This document shows, piece after piece, positions 23,035 through 31,880 of a DNA stretch of 64,000 nt. The position numbers and the translations under genes are program-made. Each line of letters begins with the position of its first letter. The first letter of the stretch is position 1. Source of the DNA: Planctomycetota bacterium. GTDB lineage: Bacteria > Planctomycetota > Planctomycetia > Pirellulales > UBA7805. The notes below the pieces were generated by a model that saw only the letters and a program-made list of their open reading frames with translations, was not told where the DNA came from and ran no database searches. Location of the stretch: contig QQVP01000071.1 of the NCBI GenBank assembly GCA_003389215.1, positions 1-64,000 on the forward strand, in the 5' to 3' direction.

Positions 23035-24831
23035 ATGTCGACGCTTGTCCAGGCGCAATCTCGTCTGTCCGATTACTGCGAGCGCTCCGTGTTGCCGGCG
23101 CTCTACGACCGGCTCGACGTGGCTTTTCCCGAGTTTGGCTGGAAGCGAAATGCGACCGGCTGGGTCGGCTCACTCGCCACCGGCGCTCGCCAGCCGGACC
23201 AGGTCGTCTTCTGTCGTCAACCCTGGGGATTCGTCACCCAGACAGGCGAACCACAAAGCTGGCTCGCGTATGCCAACGGCGGTGGCGAGCCGATGGATGA
23301 AGCCTTCGTTCAGACCGTGCGCAAACTGGCGCGGCTGGCCGGGGTCGACGACCTGGGGCTCGAACAGGACTTTAGCGCCGCCGAAAAGACCGCCGCCACA
23401 CGACGCGAGCGCTCGCGGCAACTCTTCGAGGCCTTTGCGTCCTACGCGCACCTGGCCCTGACCGGACCGGCAGGTGCCGCCGCGGCCGCGTATCTGTGCG
23501 AACATTATGGCTTCACGCCGGATGAAATCGACGAGCTACCCGTCGGCTTCTATACCTCGCGGCGCGACGTCGTCGATTACCTGACCGGGGTCGGCTTCTC
23601 CGAGCGTGAAATTCTTCAAGCCCGCGCGATGACCGATGCGCGGCTGGCCGGTCGGCTCGTCGTTCCCTGGCGCGATCGCTGGGGCAACATTCAGTCGGTG
23701 GTCGCCCACAGTTGTGCCGAAGACTTGGGCGACGAACCTCGTCGCCTGTATCTGAAGTGCGGCGATTTGAGCGAACCCTTCGGTTTGAACGTGGCCCTCA
23801 GCGGCGAGGCCGACGGCTGCGAAAACCTGGTGCTCGTCGAAGACGAGCTCGCCGCGCTGTTGTTCCATGCCCGTGGGGTCGCGAATGTGGCCAGCTTCGG
23901 CAGCGCCGGGCGCATCCCGACCGCCGATCAATGGCAGACGCTGCACGACTTCGGAGTCCGCAATGTCACCCTGGCGTTTCATGACCATGTCGCGGGCTAT
24001 CAGCGGACCCGCGCTGCCATTGAAACCGCCCATCAAGCCCATCGCATGCCGCATCTGTTCGCCTTGGCGCACCGCGGGCTTGGCGATGCCCGTCGTCCGC
24101 AAGATTACTTGGCCGCTCGTGGCGTGGCGCCCTGGCAGCAGCTCGTCGAGGGGCGGGTGCATGCCTACCACTTTGTGGCCCGCGGCATTTTGCGACAACA
24201 CAAACGGGGCCCTTGGAGCGATGCCCGGTTGCTGGAGACGCTCGTGTCGGCCCTCGCGTTCGATGCGGCCGTGTACCGCCCGCCACGTGAGCTGGAACTC
24301 GACCGCTTCTTCTGGCGCGTGATCCTCGAGGCGACCAGTGCCTACTGGCCGGCGGTCGTCTATCCCTTGCCGCATCGCAAGGAGACGCTGCTGCGAAATC
24401 GGCCGGGCAACTGGAACACGGCTCGTTGCCGCGAACAGTTGCATCAGCTGCAAGCGGCCATGCACGGCGGCGACACGCAGCGGTTCACGAATCTCATCTG
24501 GGCGGGGGCCTGTGAATTGGCCGGGCTGGAGGCGGTGCCGCAGAAGCCGCTGCCCGTCACCCCACCCTCGCCGCGGCGTCCGCTGTCGGGTAACTACCGT
24601 GGGCCGGTGGTCCAACATGCGAAGAGTTGTGCCGCCGAGCCGGCACCGCCGACGAAGGAAGTCGCCAAGACCGAGCCGGCGGAGCGGCCGCTCTTCACGA
24701 GGGCCGACGTGCGGCGAATGGCCTATCTGATGTGGGAACAGGACGGGCGCCAGCTAGGCCGCGACGAGTACTACTGGTTCGAGGCGGAGCAGCTCCTGCT
24801 CCGCCTCGGTATCTTGGAACGCGAACCGTAG
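23035..24831 (+). CDS. DnaG-like Toprim-fold protein fused to a C-terminal DUF2934 domain
   Basis: I use the ATG at 23035 (598 aa), which follows GAGGAACCCC. Residues about 130-330 resemble the DnaG primase core: AAYLCEHYGFTPDEIDEL, RLVVPWRDRWGNIQSVV and a Toprim-like LVLVEDELAALLF. The region where primases carry a DxD metal motif followed by AG reads FHDHVAG, so both Asp positions are His. There is no N-terminal zinc finger. The last 45 residues, VRRMAYLMWEQDGRQLGRDEYYWFEAEQLL, match the DUF2934 pattern. I see no DnaB-interacting domain, and replication primase function is unlikely. The gene is not in an obvious operon; its 3' end overlaps the convergent PEP-CTERM gene by 61 bases. Confidence 0.75.
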   Translation: MSTLVQAQSRLSDYCERSVLPALYDRLDVAFPEFGWKRNATGWVGSLATGARQPDQVVFCRQPWGFVTQTGEPQSWLAYANGGGEPMDEAFVQTVRKLARLAGVDDLGLEQDFSAAEKTAATRRERSRQLFEAFASYAHLALTGPAGAAAAAYLCEHYGFTPDEIDELPVGFYTSRRDVVDYLTGVGFSEREILQARAMTDARLAGRLVVPWRDRWGNIQSVVAHSCAEDLGDEPRRLYLKCGDLSEPFGLNVALSGEADGCENLVLVEDELAALLFHARGVANVASFGSAGRIPTADQWQTLHDFGVRNVTLAFHDHVAGYQRTRAAIETAHQAHRMPHLFALAHRGLGDARRPQDYLAARGVAPWQQLVEGRVHAYHFVARGILRQHKRGPWSDARLLETLVSALAFDAAVYRPPRELELDRFFWRVILEATSAYWPAVVYPLPHRKETLLRNRPGNWNTARCREQLHQLQAAMHGGDTQRFTNLIWAGACELAGLEAVPQKPLPVTPPSPRRPLSGNYRGPVVQHAKSCAAEPAPPTKEVAKTEPAERPLFTRADVRRMAYLMWEQDGRQLGRDEYYWFEAEQLLLRLGILEREP

Positions 24832-26675
24832 ACGGCCAGGGCGGCGAGTGCCAGTCCGCTCAGAACGAGCGTCGAGGGCTCTGGCACGGGCACCGGGATC
24901 ACGATCAGATCGAACGGCACCAGAGGCGAGCCGAGCGAACGGCTGACCTGGTTTGTGCTCAAGAGGTCAAACAGCTCCGTAATGTTCATGCCGGTCGGAA
25001 ACACACTACCAATGCTGGCCGAGCTCGTGAGCGCGGCGAGCGATGCCTCCTCGACTTGAATGGTCGTGGCGGTGGCCACGCCGCCGAGCACCGGCGTGTG
25101 ATTGCCCGGCAGGAAGCTGTTGCCGGTATTTTGCAATGCGTAGCCGATGATCGAGCTGTCGTCGGGATCCAGGATCACCTCGCCGGTGGCCGCGTTGTAG
25201 ATCAGGTCGGGAATGTTGGGGTCGTCCGTAAAGCCAACTTCGGCAGTGAGGTTGAGCGTGAGCACCTCGTTGTTTCCCAGTTCGTCGACGAACGCGAAAT
25301 CGTAACTGGCTTGATATTGCCCCAGGTCGCTCGCGACAAACGTGGCGGTGTAGGTCAGGGATTCGCCGCCATCCAATTCCCTCAGGTTTAGATGGACGTT
25401 GGTGGTCATTGCATCGGTGTTGCCGGAGCCATTAACGCTGACCAGGTCGATGAACGCGGTTATTCCTGCTCCGCCCACAAGATTTGCAATCACGAAGTCC
25501 TGGTCTGCCTCCGCGGCATAGGGCGACAGCGTGCCGAAGTCGATCGTGAGCTCATTGATGTCGGCACTGGTAGCAAGCGACGCGTTCGACGGGAAATCGA
25601 CGGGACTCGCCATGTAGATTTCCGCCTCGATCACGGTTCCCTCCCAGGCCCGCCAGGCGAGCCTATCTCCCGAAAGCACGAGGGTGTCGATGATCGTAGA
25701 AGTGTCACTAACCTGAGTTGTTGTGGAGCCGTCGTAGAGAAACACCTGATTGGATCCGCCTCCGACGTCTTCCAGCCAGGCAACGTAGTCGCCGGAGACT
25801 TGCGGCGTCGCCTTGTACGAATCGACACCGCCTAGTTGCGTCGTCGTCGTTCCGTCGTAGAGCATGATCTGATAGTCGCTGCCATCGTACGAATTCCAGA
25901 CGATGTTGCTTCCAGAGATCTGCGGATCCTGATCGAGACGCGAGTTTTGCGTGAGCTGCGTGGTCGTTGTGCCATCGAAGAAATAGATCTCGTCATCGCC
26001 GTCCGAGGCTTCCCAGACGACCGTTCCGCTGGAGATCTGGTACTCTTTGTCGTCAACGCTGTTATTCGTGATCTGAGTTGTCGTGAGTCCGTCGTAGTAG
26101 AACAGCTCATAGTCGTTTCCGTCCCACGCGCGCCAGGTAATGTCGCTTCCGGCAATCTTGGGGAAATCGTCGTCGACGTTGTTGTTGGTGATTTGGGTGG
26201 TCGTCACGCCGTCGTAGTGAAAGATCTCGTAATCGTTGCCGTCCCAGCCGTGCCAGACGATGTTGTTGCCCGAGATCTGGGGATGTGCATCGTCTGTCGA
26301 GTTAGAGGTGATCTGGCTAATCACACTGCCGTCGTAGTAGAAGATCTCCGAATCGGTACCGTCGTCGCCATACCAGACCAAATTGCTTCCGGAGAGTTGG
26401 GGAGCTACATCATTCAGTGCATCGTCGGTCAGCTGCGTTATGGACGCTCCATCAAAGAAGAAGATCTCCTGGTCGTCGCTGCTGGATGCTTCGAGCGGAC
26501 CCTGCCACGCAATGTTCGCGCCGGAAATCGTTGGATGCGACTCGGTCACTCCCACCGTGCTGAACCCCGGGCCAGAAATTCGGGTGTCGGTCAGCTGGGT
26601 AACTCGGTGAACGGCCGCCGCAGGACCTGTGAGGAGAAAGAAGAATACGAGACAAAGCGCAGTTCTGACGTGCAT
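24771..26675 (-). CDS. PEP-CTERM-anchored surface protein with 40-residue TolB-like repeats
   Basis: Start at MHVRTALCLVFFFLLTGPAAA (26675; 634 aa), a strong signal peptide. Seven to eight tandem repeats of about 40 residues follow, each with PQISGSNIVW, an acidic DGxDxEIF segment and YDGxTTTQ, the pattern of a beta-propeller. After a second beta-rich region of some 200 residues the protein ends VPEPSTLVLSGLALAALAVYG plus a basic tail, the PEP-CTERM sorting signal processed by an exosortase. It is thus exported and probably displayed at the surface or in extracellular polymer. Upstream there is a sigma-54-type promoter and three palindromes. Ligand or function of the propeller is unknown. The stop lies inside the convergent neighbour. 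Confidence 0.92.
   Translation of the reverse strand: MHVRTALCLVFFFLLTGPAAAVHRVTQLTDTRISGPGFSTVGVTESHPTISGANIAWQGPLEASSSDDQEIFFFDGASITQLTDDALNDVAPQLSGSNLVWYGDDGTDSEIFYYDGSVISQITSNSTDDAHPQISGNNIVWHGWDGNDYEIFHYDGVTTTQITNNNVDDDFPKIAGSDITWRAWDGNDYELFYYDGLTTTQITNNSVDDKEYQISSGTVVWEASDGDDEIYFFDGTTTTQLTQNSRLDQDPQISGSNIVWNSYDGSDYQIMLYDGTTTTQLGGVDSYKATPQVSGDYVAWLEDVGGGSNQVFLYDGSTTTQVSDTSTIIDTLVLSGDRLAWRAWEGTVIEAEIYMASPVDFPSNASLATSADINELTIDFGTLSPYAAEADQDFVIANLVGGAGITAFIDLVSVNGSGNTDAMTTNVHLNLRELDGGESLTYTATFVASDLGQYQASYDFAFVDELGNNEVLTLNLTAEVGFTDDPNIPDLIYNAATGEVILDPDDSSIIGYALQNTGNSFLPGNHTPVLGGVATATTIQVEEASLAALTSSASIGSVFPTGMNITELFDLLSTNQVSRSLGSPLVPFDLIVIPVPVPEPSTLVLSGLALAALAVYGSRSKIPRRSRSCSASNQ
25700..26620 (-). 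repeat. Coding tandem repeats of about 120 bp in the PEP-CTERM gene
   Basis: Successive 40-codon units encode ISGxNIVW...DGxDxEIFxYDGxTTTQ. Adjacent units share stretches such as the reverse complement of GTAGTAGAAGATCTC-like text, so they diverged after duplication. Such arrays may vary in number between strains. Confidence 0.75.
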
Positions 26676-26746: not shown

Positions 26747-26762
26747 TGCAAGTCGAGTGCCC
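26747..26762 (-). promoter_or_regulatory. Sigma-54 (RpoN) promoter of the PEP-CTERM gene
   Basis: On the minus strand the sequence reads GGGCACTCGACTTGCA, matching TGGCAC-N5-TTGCW with the invariant GG and GC ten bases apart and only the first T replaced. It lies 72 bases upstream of the start codon. A second, degenerate copy of the same 34-bp segment lies 44 bases further upstream (CTCACTCGACTTGCA) but lacks the GG and is unlikely to function. RpoN control of PEP-CTERM genes through PrsK/PrsR is known in other bacteria. Confidence 0.75.
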
Positions 26763-26852
26763 ATCGGTTAAGCGAACAGGCACTTCGCGCTGCAAGTCGA
26801 GTGAGGATCGCGACTAAGCGAACAGAGCGACGACGCGGACGGCAGACCGCAC

Positions 26853-26934
26853 CTGTCCGCATCCGGACAGTTCGAATCGCGGGCTGTACGTCCGCGGACA
26901 GAGAGATGCCGAGAGCCTGTCCGGCAGCGGACAG
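26853..26934. promoter_or_regulatory. Three phased 18-bp palindromes, candidate enhancer (activator) sites
   Basis: CTGTCCG-N4-CGGACAG occurs at 26853-26870 and 26917-26934, with a one-mismatch copy (CTGTACG-N4-CGGACAG) at 26884-26901. Spacing of 31 and 33 bases is about three helical turns, so all lie on one DNA face. They sit 90 to 190 bases upstream of the sigma-54 promoter, where an AAA+ activator such as PrsR would bind. Confidence 0.7.
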
Positions 26935-28973: not shown

Positions 28974-29509
28974 GGCTAGCGGGCGGCGATTCGGGTGCGG
29001 GGCGAGGGCCAAAGTTGGGCGGGACACAGGCGGGCTCAAGTAGGGTGAGGTGCAGGAGAGTCGGAGGAAATGACAGCAGTCCTGGGAATTCTCTGCGGGC
29101 AATCCGAAATCGTCAAGTCTGCGGGCATTGCAGCTTGATGGCACCGCGATCGCCCCAATTGCTGCCGTTGCCGGCGACCAAGACAACGGTGCGATTTCGC
29201 TTTTGACACGCCGTCGACGAGTCGCTATTCTCCCCGCCCCCGCACGAGAAGCCGTCGCTCTTGCTAGGCATCTCGCCCCCGCACCCCCAACCATTTGTCC
29301 GCCCGCGAACGGCGACGAGCCACGCCGACTCGGGGCCAACCGAGAGACCTCGCCGGGCACGCGCTGCATCCAGGCCGTCGCGGAGTTTTCGCGAATGCGG
29401 CACCTGTGCGTATATGTCCAGAAGCCGGGGTCAGGTCGAGAACGCGCGTACGCGAGCATCGTCTGGCAGTCGCCAGGGAGGCGTCGAGTTGCACGGAGAC
29501 CAATTGCTG
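28974..29509. other. 536-base divergent intergenic region, nothing recognised
   Basis: Between the peptidase gene (minus) and the receiver gene (plus). Several ORFs cross it but none shows a family, ribosome-binding site or coding signature I trust. It presumably holds promoters for both directions. Confidence 0.4.
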
Positions 29510-29920
29510 ATGACCGAGTCCGCTACTGAAACCGCGGCCGTGCTGATCGTGGATCCCTCGTCCGATTCGCGGGAGGTCCTGCGGACCGCTCTCGCGCACT
29601 GTGGCTGGAAGATTCTCGAGGCGACCCACGCCCAGCAGGGGCTGGATATGTTGGACCAGTATCACCCACGCATCGTCGTGCTCGACGTGGAACCGGAGCG
29701 CGAGGTGGCGGTCGAGCCGCAGCTGCTTGAGCAGATTTCGCGGCGAGTCGACGCGGCTGAGGGTCAGCTGGTCGTGTTGGGGCAGGTGGGCAGGGCCGCC
29801 GCGAATATCGCGGATACGACGATGCCCGACGCCCATGGTCGGCAATCCTTCGCGAAACCCTACCAATACGGGGCTGTGATTCGTAAAATTGAGGAACTCG
29901 TGCGGCAGGCAGCCCGGTGA
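29510..29920 (+). CDS. Stand-alone response-regulator receiver domain, degenerate
   Basis: The ATG at 29510, ten bases after GGAGAC, gives 136 aa. The fold is recognisable: VLIVDPSSDSREVLRTAL at the N-terminus, the phospho-acceptor candidate Asp59 in RIVVLDVEPE, and Lys116 in FAKPYQYGAVI. The acidic pair that binds magnesium is reduced to one Asp (VDPSS instead of VDD), and the switch Ser/Thr position reads VVLGQVG, so phosphorylation may be impaired. There is no output domain. The gene lies 211 bases upstream of an FHA-GAF-histidine kinase on the same strand, suggesting the two form one pathway. Confidence 0.75.
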   Translation: MTESATETAAVLIVDPSSDSREVLRTALAHCGWKILEATHAQQGLDMLDQYHPRIVVLDVEPEREVAVEPQLLEQISRRVDAAEGQLVVLGQVGRAAANIADTTMPDAHGRQSFAKPYQYGAVIRKIEELVRQAAR

Positions 29921-30131
29921 GACTTCGCCGATTTGTCGCCACAAACGGTTGTGTTTTCGAGCGGTAGCTGGTCGGCAGGTGGCCGACCGAATCCAACCGA
30001 CGGGGGTCCGACCGACTGAGTCCCACGAACGGGGCCAGGCCGACTGGGCCGATGCGTCGGCGAAGCTATCGGGCTCCGCCCAACGGTGGTGTTCATACGA
30101 CCTCGAGTCCCTTCGTGCGTTAGGTCATCTC

Positions 30132-31880
30132 GTGCCATCTTTGTTTGTGATTCGCGGACGCGATCGTGGCCACCGCTACAACCTGGCGGATGGTCCGATC
30201 AGCATCGGCCGTGGTGCCAATAGCGACGTTCGCTTGCACGACACGGAGGTCTCCCGGCGTCACGCCGAAATTCGTCGTAACGGCAGCGGCTGCCAACTGC
30301 TCGATCTCGGCAGCAGCAACGGCAGCTTCGTCAACGGCGATCGGGTGACGCAACACGAGTTGAAGAGCGGCGACCAGGTGCTCATCGGTCGCACACTGAT
30401 GCTCTTTACCGGGGGCGATCCCGACAGTGCTTCGGCCACCGCGAGCGTCGACATCGTCAAGCAGGGCCACCGCGACGACTCGCAAATCGTGCGGACGATG
30501 ACTCGCGAAGAGGGCAGCCGCGACATCTTCAGCCCCGCCGCCGCGGACGGAGAGAGTCCTTGGCTTGCCCGGGCGCGGAGCAACCTGGAAGTGATGTACC
30601 GCACGGCCCTGGCGGTCAGTCATACGCTCGACATCCAGGAGCTGCTCGACCGGATCATGCTGCTGATCTTCGAGTGGGTCGAGGCCGATCGCGGCTGCAT
30701 CATGTTGCTGAACAACGAGACGGAGGAGCTCGAGCCCAAGGTGCGCCGCAATCGCAGCGGCAAGGACATCGACGAGAAGATCACGATCAGCAAGACGATC
30801 CTGGACTACGTGCTGCAGAACAACGAGGGCGTGCTGACCAGCAACGCCCGTGACGACAGCCGCTGGGACACCGGTGCGAGCATTGTTTCGATGGGCGTCC
30901 GCGAGGCGATTTGTGCGCCGATGCGGGGCCGCTACGGCGTCGTGGGGGCCATCTACATCGATACGTTTACCGAGCCGCACCGCGTCATTCAGCAGGGCGG
31001 GGCGACCAAGTTCAGCGAAGAGCATTTGAAGTTGATGATCGCCATCGCGCATCAGGCGGCCCTGGCGGTCGAAGACACCTCCTACTATTCGGCCATGGTC
31101 GACGCCGAGCGACTGGCCGCCGTGGGACAGACGATCGCCACGCTTTCGCACCACATCAAGAACATTCTGCAGGGCATCCGCGGGGGCAGCTTCTTGATCG
31201 AGATGGGCCTCTCCAGCGACGACAACGAAGTCGTCAAAAAGGGCTGGGGCATCGTCGAGAAGAACCAGGGCCGCATCAGCAATCTCGTCATGGACATGCT
31301 CTCCTTCAGCAAAGAGCGCGAGCCCGACCTGGTGCTGTCCGACTTGAACCAGGTGGTCGACGACGTCGTCGAGTTGATGGAATCGCGGGCGATGGAGTAC
31401 CAGGTGCAGCTCAACTGGCAACCCAGCGAGCGGTTGCCGCAGTCGATGTTCGATCCCGAAGGCATGCACCGGGCGATACTGAACGTGGCGACCAACGCCA
31501 TCGACGCCTGTGAATCGAGATCGCGCGACGCAACCGACTACGCCGGTCAGGTTGACGTGTCGACCGAGTACGACGAAGCGGGTCGCCTTCTGCGCGTGGT
31601 CATCTGCGACAACGGCGGCGGCATCGCGCCGGAAGACATCAAGCAGATGTTCAATATCTTCGTTTCGAAGAAGGGGAGTCGCGGAACCGGGCTGGGACTG
31701 CCGGTGAGTCAGAAGATCCTCACCGAGCATGGAGGCCGCATCCTGGTCGATAGCGAGGTCGGCGTGGGGAGCCGATTCGCTCTCGAGCTGCCTTTGATCG
31801 AAGAACCACCCACGGGGTCGGATATGCCCAATCTGCCTTCGCCCGACGACTCCGATATTCTCGACACGAGGCAGTCGTAG
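30132..31880 (+). CDS. FHA-GAF-histidine kinase
   Basis: I place the start at the GTG at 30132 (582 aa), so the protein opens with (V/M)PSLFVIRGRDRGHRY. Residues 1-95 are an FHA domain (ISIGRGANSDVRL, SRRHAEI, LGSSNGSFVNG) that binds phosphothreonine. A GAF domain follows at about 150-325 (WVEADRGCIMLLN, GAIYID). The kinase has the H-box TLSHHIKNILQG near 340, N-box NVATNAIDACES, G1 DNGGGI and G2 GTGLGLPVSQKI. No transmembrane helix is visible, so it is cytoplasmic. The FHA head links Ser/Thr kinase signalling to two-component signalling. The upstream receiver protein is a candidate partner. No strong ribosome-binding site precedes the GTG. Confidence 0.9.
   Translation: MPSLFVIRGRDRGHRYNLADGPISIGRGANSDVRLHDTEVSRRHAEIRRNGSGCQLLDLGSSNGSFVNGDRVTQHELKSGDQVLIGRTLMLFTGGDPDSASATASVDIVKQGHRDDSQIVRTMTREEGSRDIFSPAAADGESPWLARARSNLEVMYRTALAVSHTLDIQELLDRIMLLIFEWVEADRGCIMLLNNETEELEPKVRRNRSGKDIDEKITISKTILDYVLQNNEGVLTSNARDDSRWDTGASIVSMGVREAICAPMRGRYGVVGAIYIDTFTEPHRVIQQGGATKFSEEHLKLMIAIAHQAALAVEDTSYYSAMVDAERLAAVGQTIATLSHHIKNILQGIRGGSFLIEMGLSSDDNEVVKKGWGIVEKNQGRISNLVMDMLSFSKEREPDLVLSDLNQVVDDVVELMESRAMEYQVQLNWQPSERLPQSMFDPEGMHRAILNVATNAIDACESRSRDATDYAGQVDVSTEYDEAGRLLRVVICDNGGGIAPEDIKQMFNIFVSKKGSRGTGLGLPVSQKILTEHGGRILVDSEVGVGSRFALELPLIEEPPTGSDMPNLPSPDDSDILDTRQS

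Follow-up and report, generated by a model that had tools for sequence, protein, structure and literature searches.

Three palindromes upstream of an RpoN (-24/-12) promoter element raise the question of which regulator switches the PEP-CTERM gene behind them in this planctomycete. The window, i.e., the whole stretch of 64,000 nucleotides that was analyzed, is part of contig C2 of a 5.55-Mb draft genome (93% complete), for which genome-wide statistics were obtained from pattern searches and retrieved stretches. We favor, at a probability of roughly 0.83, a reading in which the palindrome array would be an enhancer for a receiver-less AAA+ activator of RpoN that switches nine PEP-CTERM loci.

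The window locus

The preliminary description had reported three CTGTMCG-N4-CGGACAG palindromes at 31/33 bp spacing and an RpoN site 72 bp before a PEP-CTERM gene, and all of these elements were found:

24771..26675, minus strand: target PEP-CTERM gene for a secreted beta-propeller protein (open reading frame, ATG at 26675)
26747..26763, minus strand: RpoN (-24/-12) promoter element TGGGCACTCGACTTGCA, GG-N10-GC, 11 of 13 consensus positions
26853..26870, no strand: putative operator 1 (promoter-proximal), CTGTCCG-CATC-CGGACAG, CTGTCCGCATCCGGACAG, palindrome match
26884..26901, no strand: putative operator 2, CTGTACG-TCCG-CGGACAG, CTGTACGTCCGCGGACAG, palindrome match
26917..26934, no strand: putative operator 3 (distal), CTGTCCG-GCAG-CGGACAG, CTGTCCGGCAGCGGACAG, palindrome match

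The target protein exceeds the Pfam cut-off for PEP-CTERM (PF07589, 23.8 bits against 20.7) and carries Msarc-type beta-propeller repeats (TIGR04275, 94.4 bits against 85), and its N terminus, judged by eye, resembles a signal peptide. The promoter element lies 72 bp upstream of the ATG and 90 bp from the palindrome array, with the transcription start predicted at ~26735; an RpoN score of at least 11 has a background of ~1% per 300 bp. The palindrome starts are 31 and 33 bp apart (array 26853-26934), and at up to two mismatches the window holds five matches against 0.82 expected, the two outside the array being scattered. The stop codon of an M28 peptidase gene, located upstream, immediately precedes the array.

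Two side observations concern the surroundings of the array. Positions 26747-26836 contain a tandem near-duplicate, GCAAGTCGAGTG...TAAGCGAACAG; the second copy keeps the -12 GC and has no -24 GG, so an RpoN site is possible in one copy only. Adjoining the M28 gene, at 29261-31880, are a receiver protein that retains the customary Asp and a kinase in which FHA- and GAF-like parts were recognized by eye; the kinase reaches only 72 bits with the PrsK model.

Distribution and architecture of the arrays

The exact 12-base core, TGTCCGN4CGGACA, occurs 16 times genome-wide, and the reversed control pattern does not occur. Together with near matches, these sites form ten arrays of two or three units each, on C2 (window), C3, C6, C16, C17, C28, C29, C30, C49, and C61. 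Nine of the ten lie 0.1-2.4 kb from a PEP-CTERM match (binomial p ~5e-12), whereas among 17 isolated sites with one mismatch only one does (Fisher p 2e-5). The genome has 50 PEP-CTERM matches in all, the majority of them without an array. RpoN sites that agree with the consensus at 9 or more of its 13 positions, on the strand facing the gene, are found 77-116 bp from seven of the ten arrays: 90 bp in C2, 116 in C3, 77 in C6, 77 in C17, 96 in C29, 88 in C30, and 78 in C49. Against a chance of 3.6% per locus this gives p ~9e-9, for a 60-130 bp range that was chosen after the sites were seen. The C28 array has a weak RpoN site only, and at C61, where a PEP-CTERM fragment lies behind the array, an RpoN site was looked for and none was found. 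The C16 array, built of three units (L016 5997-6068), has neither a PEP-CTERM gene nor a good RpoN site nearby. A single 1148-aa reading frame on C30 (L024 5075-8521) contains both an internal and a C-terminal PEP-CTERM match.

The same genome encodes RpoN (C4:104230-105660; 396.9 bits, cut-off 277.35) and an EpsH-type exosortase (C13:79195; 126 bits, cut-off 105.55). A genome scan for the palindrome beside PEP-CTERM genes and RpoN sites had been suggested earlier, and it returned nine PEP-CTERM loci, seven of them with an RpoN site. Of the two regulatory genes looked for, rpoN is present, whereas the best PrsR match (401.9 bits) falls short of the cut-off (502.6). RpoN control of the array-bearing PEP-CTERM genes, as the preliminary description had proposed, is well supported by these sequence data.

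Across 28 units, each of the twelve arm positions of TGTCCG/CGGACA carries 1.4-2.0 bits, the outer C 1.1 bits and the outer G 0.65 bits, down to 0.2-0.35 bits for the four middle bases and at most 0.5 bits in the flanks. Since only the arms are conserved, and not the spacers or flanks, the palindrome is, judged by its base conservation, a two-half-site operator and not a copied repeat. Units are spaced by 19-21 or 31-34 bp, and in one case by 52 bp, which corresponds to ~2, 3, and 5 helical turns; the spacings are phased at 10.5 bp (vector strength 0.82; p 8e-5 in a simulation that took one spacing from each array).

A candidate activator and its receiver-like neighbor

The earlier view of the palindrome as an activator's operator gained from the C3 array, which adjoins a candidate activator gene (C3:180973-182094) encoding Sigma54_activat and AAA lid domains, a Fis-type HTH, and a GSFTGA loop, with no receiver domain in the Pfam scan. 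The order on C3 is activator gene, array, RpoN site, a small receiver-like gene, and two PEP-CTERM genes. The activator gene does not adjoin the window array on C2, to which it is tied by the shared motif.

Homologs of the C3 activator, at ~50% identity, are found in 19 of 196 other genomes of the order (E ≤1e-90), and six of these 19 have the same order of activator, RpoN site, receiver, and PEP-CTERM genes. The RpoN sites of the relatives' modules match up to 13 of 13 consensus positions (TTGGCACGTAGCTTGCT). A search of 397 genomes of the order with a receiver alignment yielded ~25 further strong loci, most in the module arrangement, and the activator-RpoN site-receiver-PEP-CTERM cluster order is present in ~20 genomes, spread over several families of the order. 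Across the phylum, 392 sampled genomes, few of them from the order and by chance none a carrier besides the window's own genome, returned no further receiver at E ≤1e-20. A scan of further contigs with the C3 activator gave other activators as its best 80 matches, among which short peptide patterns, probably too specific, detected no module. The named records nearest to the C3 activator fit the planctomycete assignment made in the preliminary description. A general repeat-array search on relatives retrieved mostly unrelated repeats. In a tree, the module activators form one clade with 100/100 support, separate from 16 other activators of this genome, the branching of the C3 activator inside the clade being not settled.

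The receiver-less paralogs on C54 and C64 have neighborhoods with neither a repeated palindrome nor PEP-CTERM genes. A second type of receiver-less activator paired with an Asn-receiver, with no PEP-CTERM genes nearby, is found at L092 4413-7029 (C64 of this genome), L266, and L211; the C64 pair adjoins rpsB-tsf-pyrH-frr, and in G001 (L266) the receiver of the C64-type pair likewise lies by rpsB. A degenerate activator lacking both the GAFTGA loop and the HTH is encoded at L093 5701-6567 (C2:151844 of this genome). In family f7 (G108:C4, G096:C425, G299:C157), module-type receiver genes occur in tandem copies, and the related receiver-less activators have no PEP-CTERM genes nearby.

Recognition helix and operator were compared at the 28 loci, module or paralog, whose activator helix could be read. 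Wherever the helix reads [ST]RQ[SA]L[LI]R, TGTCCG-N4-CGGACA lies upstream of the receiver gene at up to three mismatches (15 of 15 loci); with D/E/N-R-x-x-L helices, the palindrome is in a comparable place at none of 13 loci, including L211, where a three-mismatch site 470 bp away was scored as absent. The association has a Fisher p of 3e-8 over loci that are not independent, since the 15 helix matches all come from two families. L286 departs in its layout, the activator being found beyond the PEP-CTERM genes. Genus g66 is mixed, with the palindrome in G146, G170, and G178 and not in G186; among the site pairs listed for G146 and G170, the module's is the only one whose two sites are close together. 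Paralogous activators with other helices presumably use other operators.

The small protein of the C3-type operon has a receiver fold, with PF00072 over cut-off in all six proteins tested, and the phospho-Asp is absent from all 37 aligned receivers, where it is replaced by Asn (32), Ser (3), Gly (1), or Arg (1). That a receiver-less activator and a receiver not phosphorylatable in the usual manner are conserved side by side suggests control by direct contact. The receiver-like protein probably tunes the activator in this way, most simply as feedback; the sign of its effect, inhibitory feedback or co-activation, can only be guessed. Papers on pseudo-receivers that act on activators lacking a receiver were searched for, and none of relevance was found.

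Proposed mechanism, alternatives, and known systems

The palindromes are most likely docking sites of an undescribed master switch for PEP-CTERM genes in planctomycetes, unlike that of Proteobacteria, since they recur at eight other PEP-CTERM loci and, in relatives, beside a conserved activator gene. Computation gives the sites and their association in the genome, the conservation of gene order, and the match between helix and operator. From these we infer binding, activation, looping, assembly on one face, and a role for the receiver. The window array would act as an upstream activating sequence (enhancer) whose TGTCCG-N4-CGGACA palindromes are bound by dimers of the C3 activator. With units ~2, 3, or 5 helical turns apart, the dimers would sit on one face of the DNA and could assemble an oligomer there, which would reach, by looping, RpoN polymerase on the -24/-12 element roughly 80-115 bp further downstream and open the promoter of the PEP-CTERM gene. 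This one switch would be common to the nine PEP-CTERM loci of the genome, and the operon after the activator gene would supply the receiver-like protein without phospho-Asp first and the PEP-CTERM proteins after it. A more elaborate version, which we hold tentatively and at somewhat less than even odds, is a split response-regulator system: an order-specific receiver-less activator and a separate receiver devoid of its phosphorylation site, encoded first in the activator's own PEP-CTERM target operon, would form a phosphorylation-independent surface feedback switch, with the operator spread to nine loci and paralogs carrying other helices. New here, as far as the protein sequences indicate, is the combination of an activator without its own receiver and a separately encoded pseudo-receiver.

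Seven-base self-complementary arms around four-base loops, a position directly after the M28 stop codon, and several genomic copies would also suit RNA hairpins (acting as M28 terminator) or REP-like repeats scattered over the genome. However, the C49 array lies between divergent genes and the C6 array hundreds of bases from its upstream gene, conservation is limited to the arms, and nine of ten arrays accompany PEP-CTERM genes, with phased units and with RpoN sites after them; the terminator or REP reading is highly improbable and was rejected on position, phasing, and unconserved spacers. It is improbable, too, that another transcription factor, i.e., a repressor or a non-RpoN regulator, binds the palindromes and that the RpoN site is a separate matter: lying 77-116 bp ahead of the promoter, the palindromes are placed as enhancers typically are and not as repressor sites, and an RpoN activator gene with a matching recognition helix adjoins the palindromes both here and in relatives, although palindromes of this size are common operators in many families and the C16, C28, and C61 arrays have no good RpoN site.

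The preliminary description had gone further and read the locus as under the same control as in PrsK/PrsR systems, in which case the palindromes would be bound by the phosphorylated NtrC-type response regulator of a planctomycete two-component system. The target class and the promoter type agree with this, and RpoN activators with a receiver are numerous in the genome, the highest-scoring of them reaching 402 bits with the PrsR model. RpoN control and the activator's operator were borne out; the identity with PrsK/PrsR was not. No protein exceeds the cut-off for PrsR (TIGR02915; best 401.9 bits against 502.6, with 263.9 for the C3 activator) or, in this 93% complete draft, for PrsK (TIGR02916; best 103.8 bits against 300). 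The array-adjoining activator, here and in related genomes, has no receiver and belongs to a clade that excludes the other activators of the genome, and it is in this receiver-less family that operator and helix pair up. A PrsK/PrsR system is thus quite improbable for these palindromes.

In Proteobacteria, Haft et al. 2006 described an RpoN promoter that precedes the start codon of PEP-CTERM genes by ~71 nt and a 17-nt enhancer motif ending TTTACA, sometimes repeated, ~63 nt before the RpoN site; among the species discussed, only Proteobacteria share the motif (PMC1569441). The PrsK/PrsR/PrsT system and the receiver-less switch proposed here have in common an RpoN promoter, an upstream enhancer, and an AAA+ activator with a Fis-type HTH. 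They differ in the enhancer, which here is TGTCCG-N4-CGGACA and, compared by description, unlike the 17-nt motif, and in the enhancer-promoter spacer, which is longer here; the candidate activator has no receiver, PrsK is missing at cut-off, and the target operon encodes a separate receiver-like protein without phospho-Asp. The missed cut-offs, the different enhancer, and the restriction of the known motif to Proteobacteria among the species of Haft et al. together argue that this is not a PrsK/PrsR member. Elsewhere, DVUA0057 was enriched at PEP-CTERM targets in DAP-chip (PMC3333781), and Aquincola pepA is RpoN-dependent (PMC9850573).

Two other RpoN activators resemble the candidate in part. 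The upstream activating sequence of NifA is TGT-N10-ACA (PMC6066989), which the operator here fits exactly (TGT-CCGNNNNCGG-ACA), also upstream of a -24/-12 promoter, and NifA (TIGR01817) is the best NCBIfam match of the C3 activator. Yet its 340 bits are far below the cut-off of 528.85, for which NifA function, or nitrogen fixation, was rejected; the Pfam scan finds no GAF domain, and the targets here are PEP-CTERM genes. Like PspF-type activators, the C3 protein combines AAA+ and HTH parts and lacks a sensory domain at its N terminus, a layout that suggests regulation through another protein; however, it scores 247 bits with PspF (cut-off 443.55), and its candidate partner is receiver-like, not PspA-like.

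A survey from 2025 that covers RpoN regulons of different phyla (PMC12316311) makes no mention of PEP-CTERM, and in the open literature searched, no description of planctomycete PEP-CTERM regulation later than 2006 was found. How PEP-CTERM genes are controlled in phyla other than Proteobacteria was a question left unanswered in 2006, for which a candidate regulator, operator, promoters, and conserved partner can now be named. If the partner has a function, it would be as a receiver that does without the customary phosphorylation. The natural helix-operator pairs provide material for how Fis-type domains read DNA. In family f17 (L276, L281, L284), variants like TGTTCG-N4-CGAACA lie upstream of the RpoN site and receiver gene, and these are perhaps a sister operator class.
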